Origin: Actinomycetes bacterium
GTDB lineage: Bacteria > Actinomycetota > Thermoleophilia > BMS3ABIN01
DNA: 64,000 bases
Reading direction: 5' to 3'
Assembly (NCBI GenBank): GCA_021791195.1
Contig: JAJYXB010000004.1
Location: forward strand, 124,001 to 188,000
Of this stretch, positions 43,049-50,266 are shown piece after piece. The position numbers were made by a program, and so were the translations under genes. Positions within the stretch are counted from its first letter, which is position 1. The number at the start of each line of letters is the position of its first letter. The notes under the pieces were generated by a model. That model worked only from the letters and a program-made list of their open reading frames with translations, was not told the origin of the DNA and ran no database searches.

Positions 43049-43134
43049 ACGCATCTACGAAAAGGCAAACCCGTTGTGAGACGGGGACGCAAAGCCAGGG
43101 GTCTCCGTAGAGACAGCCCAGCCGCCGAAGCTTT
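43049..43134 (+). ncRNA. Cyclic-di-GMP-I (GEMM) riboswitch
   Basis: The aptamer core is clear: AAAGGCAAACC at 43061-43071, a stem CCCGT/ACGGGG with a TGTGAG-type loop, then GGGACGCAAAGCC at 43083-43095, and the closing P3 side ending in CAGCCGCCGAAG (43119-43130). These are the conserved GEMM-I blocks in correct order. Downstream, AAAGCTTCGG (43203-43212) is complementary to CCGAAGCTTT (43125-43134) at the aptamer's 3' end, offering an alternative pairing for switching. A T-rich stretch follows near 43228-43240. The first gene, a secreted beta-rich protein, begins at 43322. Confidence 0.92.
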
Positions 43135-43321
43135 TCAGCGCAAGCTCTTAGGTTTTGGAACTGGGCATTTATTATGCCCATGACTGGGCATGCCGGTCCA
43201 AGAAAGCTTCGGTCGCACACGAGCGTTTTTGGGCCTTTTTTGATGCGTGGGATAAGGGAGAAGGTCATTATAAAGCCCGGATTAACCGGGGAAAAGGGTA
43301 AAGGGAAGGGGGTGTGGCCAG

Positions 43322-43885
43322 GTGAGACTTCCAGCGAAAATCCTGCTCTTGGGCGCAGTTTCGCTGCTGGTGTTCCTGGTTTTATCGTCGGTAAGCTTTG
43401 GCGCGGCGCCTTCACCGGTAAGCGATCCGGTGAACGTCAATGTCAATGTCGGCGACTTCATCGCGATTGACAATCCCAGCAACCTGCAGCTGCCGGACAT
43501 CATTGGTGACAACATGTCCGTCGGCGGCAACGTGACCTGGAACGTCAAGACCAACAACGCCACAGGATACAATCTGCAGATCGCTTCCGCGCAGCCAGGC
43601 GCAGCCATGACAGACGGCGCCGGCAACAGCTTCGCGGACTTCAGCGGTCCGGCGGCATGGTCGGTAGCAGGCAACACGTCTGCATTCGGCTGGAGCACGG
43701 ACAATGCCACTTTCAACGGTTTTAGCGGCATTTCCAAACTGCCGGTGAAAACCACCAGCAGCGCTACTCCAGACGGCGGTGACAGCACCACTTTGTACTT
43801 CAAGGCGGGAGTCGGCGCAGGGCATATCCAGCCCGCCGGCGCATATACCGCCAACGTGACGGTTACGGCGACGGTTCAGCCGTGA
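43322..43885 (+). CDS. Secreted WxL-like beta-sandwich surface protein
   Basis: A 187-residue exported protein. The signal peptide (about 1-27) ends near SFGAAP. The mature part alternates beta strands: VNVNVNVGDFIAIDNPSN, NVTWNVKTNNATGYNLQI and a terminal GAYTANVTVTATVQP. The last block is the usual end of WxL or pilin-like surface domains, though the Trp-x-Leu motifs are not conserved. GTG 43322 has a strong ribosome site (GGAAGGGGG). It is the first gene behind the c-di-GMP riboswitch, so its level should follow c-di-GMP. A role in adhesion or matrix is inferred. Confidence 0.75.
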   Translation: MRLPAKILLLGAVSLLVFLVLSSVSFGAAPSPVSDPVNVNVNVGDFIAIDNPSNLQLPDIIGDNMSVGGNVTWNVKTNNATGYNLQIASAQPGAAMTDGAGNSFADFSGPAAWSVAGNTSAFGWSTDNATFNGFSGISKLPVKTTSSATPDGGDSTTLYFKAGVGAGHIQPAGAYTANVTVTATVQP

Positions 43886-43933
43886 TTGCATAACAACTGA
43901 ATAGCAACACGTCAACGCAAGATTGACGGCTTT

Positions 43934-43959
43934 AAGCCCTCCCTGCCAGAGGGCTTTTG
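43934..43959 (+). terminator. Intrinsic terminator between the two surface-protein genes
   Basis: AAGCCCTC (43934-43941) pairs with GAGGGCTT (43949-43956) across a 7-base loop and is followed by TTT. It lies just before the DUF916-like gene and may lower its expression relative to the first gene. Confidence 0.7.
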
Positions 43960-45477
43960 CCGTTGGCCAGTATGGCCGATGCAGGAGATCCCGTCCTGGA
44001 AGGCGAAGAAAAAAATCGAACCCGTAAGGAAGGCCTTAAAACCATCACTCACATCGACGACCAAGCGATAAACGGCCCCGGACCCGCTCCGCCGGCCGCC
44101 AGCCAGGCCGGCCACCGCCTGGCTGCCTTGCTGCTGGCCGCCGTCACGGCGGCGGGGCTCGTGATGTCAGTGGTATTCCCGGCGCTGGCGGGAGCCTTCA
44201 CGATCCAGAAAAGCGGCGATCCTCCCAACGAGCAGATGGTCATCTCTCCCACCAAGGTGGAACTGAACCTGAATCCCGGCGAAAACGCCTCCCGCGACAT
44301 CACGCTGGCAAACCGCACCAGCAGCGTCAAGGACGTCCAGTTCAGCGTCGAAGATTTCGAGGGTTCCCAGGACCCATCCCAGGACACAATCTTCCTCGGT
44401 GACAAGGACGGCCCTTTCAGCGCCCGGCACTGGATGGATCCTGAGGTGAGCAGCATCACGCTGCAGCCGGGCGAGAGCATCGATTTCAACGTCAAGATCA
44501 ACGTTCCGCGCGATGCGGAGCCCGGCGGCCATTATGCGGTGCTGTTCGCCTCGGCGAAGAATGACGCCAGCCAGAGCCAGGGCGGCACGGTGAACCTCAC
44601 CGAGCGGATGGGCACGCTGTTCCTCATCAGCGTAGCCGGCAACGTCAACGAACAGGGAACACTAAACGCGCCGGAAGTGCCGTCCTTTACCGAGTACGGC
44701 CCCATCAATGTCGGCATCGTTTTCAACAACCAGGGTAACATCCACGTCAAACCCCACGGCAAGATCTACATCAGCAACTTGCTGGGCCAGACGGTGGCTG
44801 AGCTCGATGTGCCGCCGGCGGAGATCCCCGAATGGGTGGTGCTGCCAGCGTCCTCGCGGCGGATAAACATCCCCTGGAACAGCGGCTTTCTCTTCGGCCG
44901 CTACACCGTGCGGGCCGAAATCGAGTACGGAGCCGACAACACCAAACTGGTGATGACCAGCACTTTCTGGACATTCCCGTGGAAAATCATCCTGATGATC
45001 GTCTCGGCGCTGATCATCATCCTGATCCTGCTGGCCTGGGCAACGAAGGGCAAGCGCGCCGCCAGAGACGCGAAGCGGCAGGCGGCGGAGCCGGTTGCCA
45101 CCGCGGGAGCCATGGCCGAGGAGCTGAAGCAGGTCCCGGCTGAGGCTGCCCCGGAGATGGCGCCAGCCGGGCAGGCCCCGGCGGATGAAACGCTGGCCGC
45201 GCCTCCGGCGGCGCCGGCTGCTCCCAGCACACATGTGCCGCTCAGCGAGATCTTCCCGTCGATTCAGGACAACCGCATGATCGACATCGGCGATGAAGAG
45301 ACTCGCAAGCTGATGCGGACGATGATCGACAACCAGCTGGATCTGGCCCGGGCGTACATAGCCGAGGGCAAGACGGAAGAGGCCCGGCTGCAGCTGGAGG
45401 AAGCGCGCAACGCCGCCCAGCGCCTAAGCCTGCTGTTCGAGGTGGGTCTGATCGACGACATGCTGCAGTGGGTCTAG
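43957..45477 (+). CDS. Membrane-anchored DUF916-like protein
   Basis: A protein of up to 506 residues; ATG 43972 is a likelier start than TTG 43957, which lies in the terminator. An N-terminal membrane segment (about 50-75) is followed by a DUF916-type domain: MVISPTKVELNLNPGENASR, then ITLQPGESIDFNVKINVP and PGGHYAVLFASAK. A C-terminal membrane helix (about 345-365) precedes a long cytoplasmic tail with an Ala/Pro-rich linker and a helical TPR-like end (about 440-505). DUF916 proteins bind WxL partners and peptidoglycan, so it probably docks the 43322 product. The cytoplasmic tail is not usual for the family. Confidence 0.78.
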   Translation: MPLASMADAGDPVLEGEEKNRTRKEGLKTITHIDDQAINGPGPAPPAASQAGHRLAALLLAAVTAAGLVMSVVFPALAGAFTIQKSGDPPNEQMVISPTKVELNLNPGENASRDITLANRTSSVKDVQFSVEDFEGSQDPSQDTIFLGDKDGPFSARHWMDPEVSSITLQPGESIDFNVKINVPRDAEPGGHYAVLFASAKNDASQSQGGTVNLTERMGTLFLISVAGNVNEQGTLNAPEVPSFTEYGPINVGIVFNNQGNIHVKPHGKIYISNLLGQTVAELDVPPAEIPEWVVLPASSRRINIPWNSGFLFGRYTVRAEIEYGADNTKLVMTSTFWTFPWKIILMIVSALIIILILLAWATKGKRAARDAKRQAAEPVATAGAMAEELKQVPAEAAPEMAPAGQAPADETLAAPPAAPAAPSTHVPLSEIFPSIQDNRMIDIGDEETRKLMRTMIDNQLDLARAYIAEGKTEEARLQLEEARNAAQRLSLLFEVGLIDDMLQWV

Positions 45478-45868: not shown

Positions 45869-48800
45869 TCAGCCCGCGGATGCCGCTGTATACACGACTT
45901 TTGTGTTGTAAGTGCCCGGCGTTGCCACGTTGGGGATGTTCAGTTGAAAATCATAGCCGAAAGTCTGCGGGGCCAGGCCCGGATAGCCGCTGGTGATGGG
46001 GTCGCTGGTAGTCTGAAACGGGCGCCAGGGATCGGCGCTGCCACTTGCTTTCCAGGCCAGGTTGGCGATGTTAATGGTGTCGGCCGGGTTTGACTGCAGC
46101 GTCAGGTCGCTGCTCGCGGCGACGCTCAGGCTCCAGAGCGCGTTTGACTGCAGGCTCAGCTGGACCGCATAAGGCGTCGGCGGCATCCCGCCGCTGCCGA
46201 TGACATACGGCTTCAACGGAGCCACCTGCCCAAAATCGATACCGGCGCCGCCGCCACTGCTGCCATCCCGGTTGTATGTGCCGCTGACCGTCATCGTGAT
46301 CGACACCGGCGCCGGCACATACTCGACCACCAGCTTCGGCCGCAGCATCGCCGTAGAATAATCCGCCGAATAAAAGCTTTTGAAATCGGCGGCGCCGCTG
46401 CCGGAGATCTTCCTAATGAGGACACCGTTGTTGGCAACAGCGCCGCTGATCCAGGATTGCGCCAGTCCGCTCACGTCCCAGTTTAGCCAGCCGGCCCCTC
46501 CGGAGACATCCAGCGCGCTGGCGGTGGCGCTGGCGGTGGCGTTGAAGTCGCCGTCGCCGCCGGGGCTCGACCAGGTGTCTGCGCCAGGTCCGTCGTAACT
46601 GAGCCAGGTGGCCCCGTCACCGCTGGCGGTGCCGGTGCCGCTTCCTGCCGTCCAGAGCTTCGCCGGCAGGACATAGTAGACGCCCAAGGCCGGCATTGAT
46701 GTATCTGCCTGGGCGTGCTCATACAGAGACAGCGTGGCGTTGTTGATCGTGGAGCCGTAGGGAATCGCGGAAAGGTCGAATCTCAGCAGGCCGCGGCGCA
46801 CTTCCGCGGCCCCGTTCTCGCCGGCGTCGATATCGGTATCCCCCCCGTAATTGAGATACTGTTTCGACGCGGCGCTGGATATCCAGGTATCCTGCGTCGC
46901 GGTGATGGTGATCAGCCTGGCGGTGTGGAACACCTGATCTGCCGACTGGGCGCTGTTGCCGGCAGTGTCAGTGGACACCACCTTGTAGTGATAATCCTGG
47001 TCAGCCGCCAGGCCGCTGAGTGAAACCACGTGCTGATTGACGCCGCCGGCGTCGGTCACGGCGGTGCAGGCGCCGTAACTGGTGGTGGTGCCGTAGCACA
47101 CCTGCGAAGAGGCATTTTCATCCGTGGACCATTTGATTTCCGCCGAGGAGGCATGGATGTTCTCGGCGCGCACCTCGCCGATTTTGGGCGCCGTCTGGTA
47201 GCCCACGGTGGCCGGCCGCCAGACCACGACCAGCTTGGGCCGCAGAGTGGCGTCGCCGGTGTAATCCGAGGAGTAGAACTTCTTCAGGTCGTTGCCGCCT
47301 GAGTTCTCGAACAGGTTCTGGACGATCAGACCGTAATTCGTGGCCGGGTTGGCAACCCATCCCTGGACGGCGGCGGTGTCGAGGCTCCAGCTAAGCCAGG
47401 CGCCGGTGGAGTTGGCGCCGATGGTCCAGCCGAGGAAGGCGCCGTAGTCGCCGCCGGGAGAAGCCCAGGCGGACGTGCCGTCGGCTGTATTCCAGGTGGC
47501 GCCGTCAGCCGGCTGCGACCCTGTCAGGGTACCTGGTGTCCAGGCCCGCGTGAGCCCGAATGCCACCAGGAACGGCGTGCTGGTGTCGCCCTGAGCCATC
47601 TGGTAAAGGGAAAGGTTGGCGCTGATGATGCTGGCATTGGCAGGGATGCCGGAAAGGTCGAACTTCAGGGCGCTGCGCATGGTCATGATATTGGGATCGG
47701 CGGCCAGGTCGCCGATGCGCAGGTGCTGGTCGGCGCCCCAGTTCCAGTCCGGCTGGCCGGTGCCGAACCCGGTGTCATCGCCGATGCCGGCGAATGGTTG
47801 CAGAACTGTTACATATTCGGTAGTGAAGGTGGATTCCGCGGAGCAGGCGTTGTTGCCACCCCCGTCAGCGGAGCAGACTTTGTAATAATATTTGGTGCCG
47901 GGGATGAGCCCGCCCAGATTCTGGGAGTGGCTGGTGACCTGGGTGGTGTCCAGCGCGGTCGATTCCGGATAGTTGCCGGAGCTGGTGCCATAGAAGACCT
48001 GCGAGCTTGCGGTCTTGTCGGTGTTCCAGGCGACCGTCGCCGCCGTGCCGGTGACCGCGGAGACGGCCACGTTCGAGATTACCGGCGGATTGTTGTCGAC
48101 ATTGACGAGAACCGTGACTGTCGTAGGCGCGCTCGGATCCCAACCGGCGCGGTCCCAGACCCGCAGCCGCAGGGTATAGGCGCCATCGGCCGTTGCGGTG
48201 GTGTCCCAGGCGCCCAGGGAGCCGTTTGTCACCGGCGAGCTGCCGGTAGCGATGGCAGTCCAGCTGCCGGGCGAAGCACCGGCGCCGTAGTCCAGCTGAT
48301 ACTGGTAGAAGCTGGTGGCGTCGCTGGCCGTGCCGCTGACCGCCACTGTTCCCTTGACAAAATCGTTCGCAGCCGGCGAGGCGATTGCACCAGTGGGCGG
48401 CGTACTGTCGATCTGGATCATGTCCGACATCCACTCGATGACGCCTCCGCCAGTGTTTTTCAGCAGCGTCCGCAGGTCGTACCAGTCGCGATCATTGAGG
48501 CTGCCAGCGCCAGGAAGCTTCAGCAGGAAATTATACATCTTGCCGTTTTGTGTTACAGCCGGCGCCGCCCACGAATATTTGGCCGCGTTGGTGAAATCGT
48601 AGAGCCGGTTGTTGCTGCCGGTATTCGAACCCGAATAGGTGGCGCCGCTGCCGTAGGCGGAGACGTATATAACGGCGCCGGGGCGGAAGGTGTAGCTCTC
48701 ATCGGTCCGGGCCGGGTCGGCGTAGAACTTCATGTACTGGGCCGTCAGGGTGGAGATATCCAGCTGCACTTCAAAATCCAGCGCAGTCATGCTGTTCTTC

Positions 48801-49231
48801 ACCCGGCCAGTGAGTTTCAGGTAATTGGGGGAACTGGCGGGGATGAGCACCGAGCCAGTGTAGACATAGGGCGAGCTGGATGAAGTCCGGGTCCAGACGC
48901 CGCTGGCCACCCACGACTGCAGGTAGTTCCTTAGCTGGATGTTTCCCGAAGACCTGCTGCTCACCCTGGTGGTGGTCACGCGCACATACACGCGCTGGCC
49001 GGGAGCAAAGGCGGTGGTATGGCTGGTGCAGGCGGCATCGGCGCAGATCTCGATCATATCGCCGTTTGCCTCGGTGAAGATGCCGGTTGCCGGCGCCAGG
49101 ACCGCGGCGCCGCGGGCGGCCATAAATACCGCGGCGATCAGCAGGGCCGCAAAAAAAGCCAAGCCCGGCCAGGCCGCGACCGGCAGCATCCGATTACCAG
49201 CAAAGCTGTCCTGAGACCCACGTATAGGCAA
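45869..49231 (-). CDS. Giant secreted protein: Ig/FN3, two DNRLRE domains, WxL-like end
   Basis: A 1120-residue exported protein. The signal segment lies at about 20-42. After an N-terminal beta domain (to about 260) come an Ig-like domain (about 278-375), an FN3 domain (about 383-470, ending TTE), a DNRLRE domain (about 478-690; SLYQMAQGDTSTP), a second FN3 (about 695-775) and a second DNRLRE domain (about 778-965). The last 150 residues carry ITMTVSGTYNRDGSSGGGAG and end GTYNTKVVYTAASAG, as in the WxL-like 43322 product. A surface fibre or adhesin role is inferred. The DUF916-like gene at 49292 lies immediately upstream. Confidence 0.82.
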   Translation of the reverse strand: MPIRGSQDSFAGNRMLPVAAWPGLAFFAALLIAAVFMAARGAAVLAPATGIFTEANGDMIEICADAACTSHTTAFAPGQRVYVRVTTTRVSSRSSGNIQLRNYLQSWVASGVWTRTSSSSPYVYTGSVLIPASSPNYLKLTGRVKNSMTALDFEVQLDISTLTAQYMKFYADPARTDESYTFRPGAVIYVSAYGSGATYSGSNTGSNNRLYDFTNAAKYSWAAPAVTQNGKMYNFLLKLPGAGSLNDRDWYDLRTLLKNTGGGVIEWMSDMIQIDSTPPTGAIASPAANDFVKGTVAVSGTASDATSFYQYQLDYGAGASPGSWTAIATGSSPVTNGSLGAWDTTATADGAYTLRLRVWDRAGWDPSAPTTVTVLVNVDNNPPVISNVAVSAVTGTAATVAWNTDKTASSQVFYGTSSGNYPESTALDTTQVTSHSQNLGGLIPGTKYYYKVCSADGGGNNACSAESTFTTEYVTVLQPFAGIGDDTGFGTGQPDWNWGADQHLRIGDLAADPNIMTMRSALKFDLSGIPANASIISANLSLYQMAQGDTSTPFLVAFGLTRAWTPGTLTGSQPADGATWNTADGTSAWASPGGDYGAFLGWTIGANSTGAWLSWSLDTAAVQGWVANPATNYGLIVQNLFENSGGNDLKKFYSSDYTGDATLRPKLVVVWRPATVGYQTAPKIGEVRAENIHASSAEIKWSTDENASSQVCYGTTTSYGACTAVTDAGGVNQHVVSLSGLAADQDYHYKVVSTDTAGNSAQSADQVFHTARLITITATQDTWISSAASKQYLNYGGDTDIDAGENGAAEVRRGLLRFDLSAIPYGSTINNATLSLYEHAQADTSMPALGVYYVLPAKLWTAGSGTGTASGDGATWLSYDGPGADTWSSPGGDGDFNATASATASALDVSGGAGWLNWDVSGLAQSWISGAVANNGVLIRKISGSGAADFKSFYSADYSTAMLRPKLVVEYVPAPVSITMTVSGTYNRDGSSGGGAGIDFGQVAPLKPYVIGSGGMPPTPYAVQLSLQSNALWSLSVAASSDLTLQSNPADTINIANLAWKASGSADPWRPFQTTSDPITSGYPGLAPQTFGYDFQLNIPNVATPGTYNTKVVYTAASAG

Positions 49232-49291: not shown

Positions 49292-50191
49292 TTAGCGAAA
49301 ACCCTTGCCGAGGAAAAATCCCGCGGTAGTGGTGAAGGCGAGCCCAATAAGCATCAGCCCCAGCTTCCAGGGAAAGAAGATGATCAGGGCGGTGCTCCTG
49401 ACCGGCGACCCTGCTCCGGCGCTGAGCTGCATGGTCACCCGGCCGATGCCGAAGGTGGGCGGATCACTCCAGACTTCCCGCAAAGCGGCGCTTTGTCCGG
49501 AGGCAAGCTCGGGGCTCTGGCCGGACAAGCCGGTGCCGCTGAGCAGGCCGCCGACGCTGACGCTGCCGTCAAGGCGCGCCGGGAACCTGTTGTTGTTGCT
49601 GCCCCGCAGTGAGAAGACGGCCGGCTCGCCGCCGTCGACGACCAGGGGAGCGGAGAAGCCGGGGCCAACGACCGGCTGGATGACGTTCACGTCGAGGATG
49701 ACGTCCACGCCGCTACCAACCGAAATCTCGCCGCCTCCGGACGGCTGCGCCTGAATGGCCACCAGACCCCGCACCGATCCCGGAGGCGCCTGCGCGCCGG
49801 TTGTGATTCTGATAGCGACTGTCGCCGACTGCCCGGGGCGGAGGTTAAGCCTGCTGGGCTGGACGGCGATGCTGACGCCGCCGCCGGGCTTTCCACCGGC
49901 GCCAGGCTGAACCGCCACTGTGACGGCCACACCGGACCGGTTGGTGATGGTGACAGATTCGGCGGTCTGGTCGCCGGCCGCGATCGTCGGCGATATCTTT
50001 GCCGGTGTCACGGTGACGCCGATACTGTTTTTTGCCTGCGGCGGGGAGGCCGAGGCGGCCGCGGGTGAAACGGCTGCCATGGACGCTGCGCCGCCGGCGC
50101 GTGCCAGCGCCCGCGGCGCCGGCAGCGTCAGCGACACAATGAACGCCGCCAGGCTGGCGATCAGCAGGCCGGATCTTTGTAACGGCGGCAT
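49292..50191 (-). CDS. Second membrane-anchored DUF916-like protein
   Basis: About 299 residues from ATG 50191, chosen because a typical signal peptide begins there (LLIASLAAFIVSLTLPAP); the frame is open to 50254. The mature domain starts IGVTVTPAKISPTIAAGDQ and includes SRLNLRPGQSATVAIRI, the DUF916-type first beta sheet. A C-terminal membrane helix (KLGLMLIGLAFTTTAGFFLG) anchors it. It ends about 60 bases before the giant WxL-like protein gene on the same strand, so the pair mirrors 43322/43957. Unlike 43957 it has only a tiny cytoplasmic tail. Confidence 0.75.
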   Translation of the reverse strand: MPPLQRSGLLIASLAAFIVSLTLPAPRALARAGGAASMAAVSPAAASASPPQAKNSIGVTVTPAKISPTIAAGDQTAESVTITNRSGVAVTVAVQPGAGGKPGGGVSIAVQPSRLNLRPGQSATVAIRITTGAQAPPGSVRGLVAIQAQPSGGGEISVGSGVDVILDVNVIQPVVGPGFSAPLVVDGGEPAVFSLRGSNNNRFPARLDGSVSVGGLLSGTGLSGQSPELASGQSAALREVWSDPPTFGIGRVTMQLSAGAGSPVRSTALIIFFPWKLGLMLIGLAFTTTAGFFLGKGFR

Positions 50192-50266
50192 GAGCGCCTT
50201 TCGTCGACGACAGGAGATGGACGGTGGTCCGGCGGGGCGAGACCCTGCCGGCACATGGCCGCCGGC

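Follow-up and report, generated by a model that had tools for sequence, protein, structure and literature searches.

The question raised by this locus is whether an RNA that senses the second messenger c-di-GMP controls a pair of genes for surface proteins, by which mechanism, and in which direction. The locus lies in a 64-kb window, which is the whole stretch of DNA that was analyzed. A cmscan search of the whole window found a single riboswitch, an aptamer at 43055-43130 on the plus strand, with 65.6 bits against RF03167 (c-di-GMP-I-GGC; gathering threshold 59, E 2.9e-13) and 62.6 bits against RF01051 (gathering threshold 35). An earlier note on this DNA had placed a GEMM-I aptamer before the gene pair, with coordinates that proved right to within a few bases, and had proposed a covariance-model search with RF01051 as the check, which the aptamer passed. 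The two genes that follow on the same strand are called g1 and g2 here. It is likely, with a probability of roughly 0.66, that this class-I riboswitch governs the g1-g2 operon by transcription attenuation and is OFF at high c-di-GMP, in the layout of the Cd1 riboswitch.

The leader and the sign of control

An intrinsic terminator lies between the aptamer and g1 at 43195-43241 on the plus strand (GGTCCAAGAAAGC...GCGTTTTTGGGCC) and has a T6 tract; its 5' arm is called strand T and its 3' arm strand H. It has an energy of -20.1 kcal/mol, and 1 of 300 shuffles was as good. Intrinsic terminators stand about 100 nt past the aptamer in all ten intact orthologous leaders, each equaled by at most 5 of 300 dinucleotide shuffles, and the consensus stem carries changes on both sides at 8 of its 15 pairs. 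The leader terminator was missed by the general terminator scan, probably because its irregular loop and stem fall outside the limits of that scan.

Strand A is the 3' strand of aptamer stem P1 (GCCGAAGCTTT, 43124-43134, plus strand), and it can pair with the 5' arm of the terminator. In the window, A and T form a perfect 10-nt inverted repeat (43125-43134 and 43203-43212) with a duplex energy of -21.7 kcal/mol, which was equaled by 5 of 2000 shuffles. Complementarity between the P1 3' strand GCCGAAGC, which contains C92, and the terminator 5' arm is present in nine of the ten leaders (at most 10 of 300 shuffles; missing in G011), and the pairing is kept in the window's own genome (G000) and in G004 despite an altered terminator stem. 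A conserved terminator together with a complementary P1 3' strand, an expression platform able to couple aptamer and transcription, occurs in nine of ten leaders; these come from related genomes and are not ten independent tests.

A published parallel is Cd1, in which the terminator is built from T and H, the antiterminator uses A and T, and the aptamer and the terminator can coexist (PMC9262584). Because A is complementary to T in the window and the terminator consists of T and H as in Cd1, transcription attenuation is likely and the switch is probably OFF, a sign that is rated at about two in three. In C. difficile, every one of the seven functional class-I c-di-GMP riboswitches is an OFF switch (PMC6366702), and pilM is an ON switch in which strand A builds the terminator (PMC9262584). 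At low c-di-GMP, the P1 3' strand would be available for pairing with the 5' arm of the terminator, no terminator would form, and RNA polymerase would continue into g1 and g2. Upon binding of c-di-GMP, P1 would be held and strand A occupied, so that the terminator would form and transcription would end.

An ON switch, which is possible but rather unlikely, would use a second alternative fold. In the ligand-free RNA, an anti-aptamer hairpin (GCCCAGC.GCCGAAGC with GGTTTTGG..CTGGGC) would capture the aptamer and the terminator would form, while c-di-GMP would free downstream strands that block the terminator; the surface pair would then be made at high c-di-GMP, like the Cap adhesin under the control of Bc2. 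This hairpin, formed by the 3' strands of P3 and P1 with the adjoining downstream segment, is predicted in most of the leaders examined and does not preclude the terminator, so an ON switch would be allowed. The Bc2 RNA is itself an ON switch ahead of a cell-wall-anchored adhesin (PMC4933901), and adhesins are usually produced at high c-di-GMP. However, the sequence that strongly complements the terminator 5' arm is the P1 3' strand of the aptamer, which predicts OFF, and folding revealed no clear antiterminator that forms only with bound ligand. When truncated leaders were folded as ensembles, protecting the aptamer or leaving it free made no consistent difference, and no uniform sign emerged across genomes.

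Other elements of the leader were also observed. A small hairpin, CCCGG-ATTAA-CCGGG (43276-43290, plus strand), was found in the inverted-repeat listing and the aligned leaders 5' of the g1 ribosome-binding site, and a hairpin with another sequence occupies this place in the other leaders. The 5' flank of the aptamer, ACGCATC (43050-43056), is complementary to GATGCGT (43242-43248) just past the T tract, and by inspection this complementarity is also visible in several relatives. A sequence scan recognized no promoter upstream.

The gene pair and its junction

The earlier note had described the pair as WxL/DUF916-like. For the second gene this description holds. g2 (43957-45477, plus strand) is an ORF of 506 aa for which hhalign, a PDB fold match, and a structure model indicate a signal sequence, two Ig-like domains, a transmembrane helix, and a helical cytoplasmic tail. 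Pfam gave no significant match in g2 itself, PF06030 (DUF916) included; 2 of 15 g2 orthologues match PF06030 with E values down to 2.8e-4, and g2 does not reach the curated cut-off. In an hhalign comparison, the 15 family members aligned with PF06030-positive proteins of the phylum at 99.95% (E 8.5e-38) over 300 columns, which span both Ig-like domains and the transmembrane helix. Those phylum proteins in turn match a WxLIP of Enterococcus faecium (EfmWxLIP1, E 7e-12). The best PDB matches of the g2 model (m14abfa879647, pLDDT 81.3) are 9i1y and 9i25, the E. faecium WxLIP, with E 1.3e-12; after WxLIP, the nearest solved folds are usher chaperones. A search with the g2 profile against the sequences of solved structures returned nothing useful. 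WxLIP proteins have a conserved NQIDKxxxYFDLK motif near the N-terminus (PMC10599100), and g2, with ISPTKVELNLNPGE in that region, does not match it. The hhalign homology and the fold match to 9i1y and 9i25 together identify g2 as a divergent WxLIP with an extra helical tail beyond the membrane helix.

The first gene does not fit the WxL part of the description. g1 (43322-43885, plus strand) encodes 187 aa with a signal peptide, and the ORF, the alignment of nine orthologues, and an AlphaFold2 model (pLDDT 83.6) predict a secreted beta-sandwich protein. Its best solved folds are chaperone-usher pilins, with a weak E of about 1e-3, and the TasA fiber is among the nearest; the WxL complex 9i25 is not among the 50 structure matches listed. 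PF13731 (WxL) has no match in g1, its nine aligned orthologues, or the rest of its own genome. The dual Trp-x-Leu motif is absent from the g1 family, most members of which have one W-x-V or W-x-I and two of which have none; g1 itself has a single W-x-V. When g1 was compared by hhalign with the small WxL-type partners of PF06030 genes, the match was 87% with signal peptides and 7% without them. The g1 profile gave nothing useful against the sequences of solved structures. Thus, neither Pfam, nor the motif, nor the comparison free of signal peptides supports g1 as a WxL protein, and g1 appears WxL-like in position and not in sequence.

The note had also held that such a surface system is otherwise known mainly from Firmicutes. 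WxL and WxLIP proteins have indeed been described almost wholly from Lactobacillales and Bacillales (PMC10599100). The claim is nevertheless overstated, because PF06030 was matched in 27 of 296 sampled genomes of the organism's own phylum, 19 of them above the curated cut-off.

After export, g1 would be located outside the cell, and the membrane-anchored g2 probably holds or presents it at the cell surface. With chaperone-usher pilins and the TasA fiber as the nearest solved folds of g1, and usher chaperones as those of g2 after WxLIP, a more speculative idea, and quite an improbable one, is that g1 is the subunit of a pilin-like surface polymer outside Firmicutes and g2 its chaperone or presenter in the membrane, the two being switched at the RNA level by c-di-GMP together with type IV pili.

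The junction of the two genes contains a conserved hairpin (AAGCCCTC...GAGGGCTT, 43925-43964, plus strand), in which 9 of 14 pairs show compensatory changes across ten genomes. The TTG start of g2 at 43957 overlaps this hairpin, so the true start of g2 is probably further downstream. The hairpin could reduce g2 expression compared with g1 or end a part of the transcripts; in the proposed mechanism it probably holds the level of g2 under that of g1. g2 may also own a promoter.

It is doubtful, but conceivable, that the riboswitch governs only g1, while the intercistronic hairpin acts as a terminator and g2 is expressed from a separate promoter. Four genomes keep g2 without the riboswitch or g1, which implies that g2 has its own expression there, and in G016 the region directly upstream of g2 outlived the loss of g1. 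The covariation of the hairpin, and the short T4 tract after its inner stem in the window, are also consistent with such a terminator. Against this, a clear T tract is missing from most of the intercistronic hairpins, the two genes lie close together in the same orientation, and no promoter was found between them on the plus strand. Control of both genes by the riboswitch is the preferred reading.

The binding pocket and the other aptamers of the genome

In the Vc2 structure, the ligand is contacted by G20, A47, and C92 (PMC4744006). The window aptamer has G, A, and C at positions 20, 47, and 92, which are located in GGCAAAC, GACGCAAAG, and GCCGAA, respectively. A47 is present in 14 of 14 aptamer copies inspected and G20 in 13 of 14. 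Because the pocket is canonical, c-di-GMP is the expected ligand, and the family name GGC is no sign of an altered one; as far as its sequence can tell, the window aptamer is a standard c-di-GMP-I riboswitch. The "GGC" in the RF03167 name denotes the G that replaces A47, as its middle letter. It is very improbable that the aptamer is a true GGC variant sensing another signaling molecule, because the higher score of RF03167 over RF01051 in the window copy and most relatives stems from other positions, and the RF03167 consensus GACGCGAA has G at position 47, where every copy inspected, the window's included, has an A, which speaks against a GGC-variant ligand.

The single copy without G20 belongs to G016, in which g1, g3, and g4 are missing (g3 and g4 are described below). 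This orthologous aptamer (L015, G016:C24:25540-25616, minus strand) has A at position 20 and has lost its terminator along with g1, which may reflect either decay or a switch to another ligand; an A at this position is the mark of cGAMP-type GEMM-I aptamers. To us, the G016 copy looks like decay.

RF01051 found four class-I aptamers in the 2.15-Mb genome, the window copy included, and the genome has 13 GGDEF matches. Class-II c-di-GMP riboswitches had no match in this genome, and the control genomes likewise gave none. Of the other three class-I aptamers, one stands before a type IV pilin operon (C14), one before a secreted protein of 610 aa that, judged by reading, resembles a glycoside hydrolase (C17), and one before a gene for a small secreted protein (C25). 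With the GGDEF gene next to the last of these, the DNA can be read as encoding a putative surface regulon under c-di-GMP control.

At the pilin locus (L007:4972-5563, G000:C14), a class-I aptamer and a strong intrinsic terminator lie directly 5' of the type IV pilin gene, and the same order of aptamer, terminator, and pilin recurs in relatives (L051, L052, and L064). At the C25 locus (L006:7444-10016, G000:C25), a class-I aptamer and terminator are followed by the small secreted protein gene, then by a gene of 220 aa and one with GGDEF; since these genes come after the aptamer, feedback of c-di-GMP on a diguanylate cyclase is possible. The pilin and C25 leaders both have terminators, but their A:T complementarity did not reach significance, being equaled by 146 and 779 of 2000 shuffles, respectively. 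In the family, the top-scoring class-I aptamers (L036, L039, L045, and L056) precede a secreted protein that by eye resembles a GH26-type glycoside hydrolase, and in several genomes these loci share a contig with rpoD-lgt-g2 on the opposite strand. Class-I aptamers in family f3 of the class (L044, L046, L048, L050, L053, and L057) precede secreted proteins that, also by eye, resemble subtilisin-type peptidases.

Conservation of the block and comparison with known systems

The family sample consisted of 19 genomes, the window's own included, and g2 is present in 16 of them. The aptamer lies upstream of g2 in 11 of these 16 genomes, with g1 between them in 10 of the 11, so the riboswitch precedes the same genes in related genomes, as the earlier note had proposed to look for. 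This recurrence of the pair with the riboswitch is far beyond chance. In four genomes (G001, G002, G003, and G007), the aptamer, g1, g3, and g4 are all absent and lgt-g2-uvrA stays; in G017, the contig ends.

g3 (45869-49231, minus strand) encodes a large surface protein with fn3 and DNRLRE/CBM96-type domains, according to Pfam/NCBIfam and synteny. It is convergent with the pair and thus lies outside the control of the riboswitch at 43055-43130; its protein is perhaps also held or presented by g2. g4 (49292-50254, minus strand), the partner gene of g3, encodes a second Ig-like, DUF916-related membrane protein, as indicated by similarity and by synteny with g3; it matches regions encoding g2 homologues with E 7e-7 and 8e-5. 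The aptamer, g1, g3, and g4 are mostly kept or lost as one block. This block resembles a WxL cluster of small protein, large protein, and WxLIP, and would not be classed as one by sequence.

In a g2 search of the genomes of 84,980 species, one relative was found, bacterium BMS3Abin01, which is the closest named relative and has the same arrangement. The NCBI listing places BMS3Abin01 among unclassified Bacteria, and GTDB places it in Actinomycetota. In the sample of the organism's class, full-length g2 orthologues occur only in this family, and 117 of the 299 genomes sampled have class-I aptamers. No aptamer was found beside genuine PF06030/WxL loci elsewhere in the phylum (20 loci, flanks of about 1.5 kb). 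A different family of the class has a class-I aptamer that is about 3 kb distant from a g2-like segment and points away from it (G418:C67 and G485:C99).

The locus links a surface system of the WxLIP type to a second messenger that controls attachment to surfaces. It points to a biological context for DUF916 proteins beyond host-associated Firmicutes, and the regulation it predicts can be tested directly. The components are known, their regulatory pairing is new, and no new principle is introduced. c-di-GMP riboswitches before adhesins are already known from Bc2 and Cap (PMC4933901), and surface proteins of C. difficile are under class-II c-di-GMP switches (PMC6366702). A literature search found no paper that joins WxL, c-di-GMP, and riboswitch, which is weak evidence of novelty since most subscription papers lay outside the search.

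Among known systems, Cd1 of the C. difficile flgB operon shares with this locus a class-I aptamer, a downstream intrinsic terminator, an A strand that can pair with T, and an aptamer and terminator that are compatible (PMC9262584). In contrast to Cd1, whose target is flagella, the target here is a surface-protein pair; the linker is longer, there is a second, anti-aptamer hairpin, and the putative switch belongs to a different organism. Bc2, which precedes the gene for Cap, a collagen adhesin of Bacillus thuringiensis, is likewise a class-I c-di-GMP riboswitch with terminator control and a cell-surface protein as its target (PMC4933901). However, Bc2 is an ON switch, and Cap is a cell-wall-anchored adhesin, whereas a WxLIP-like membrane protein and its small partner are the target here. 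The WxL clusters of Lactobacillales and Bacillales consist of a small WxL protein, a large WxL protein, and a WxLIP with the order DUF916-DUF3324-TM (PMC10599100). The present locus is like them in the fold and order of g2 (signal peptide, two Ig-like domains, and transmembrane helix), in the small secreted neighbor, and in the large modular protein nearby. It differs from them in that g1 has neither the dual WxL motif nor any match to WxL, g2 is extended by a helical cytoplasmic tail, an extra DUF916-related gene (g4) is present, and the host belongs to another phylum.
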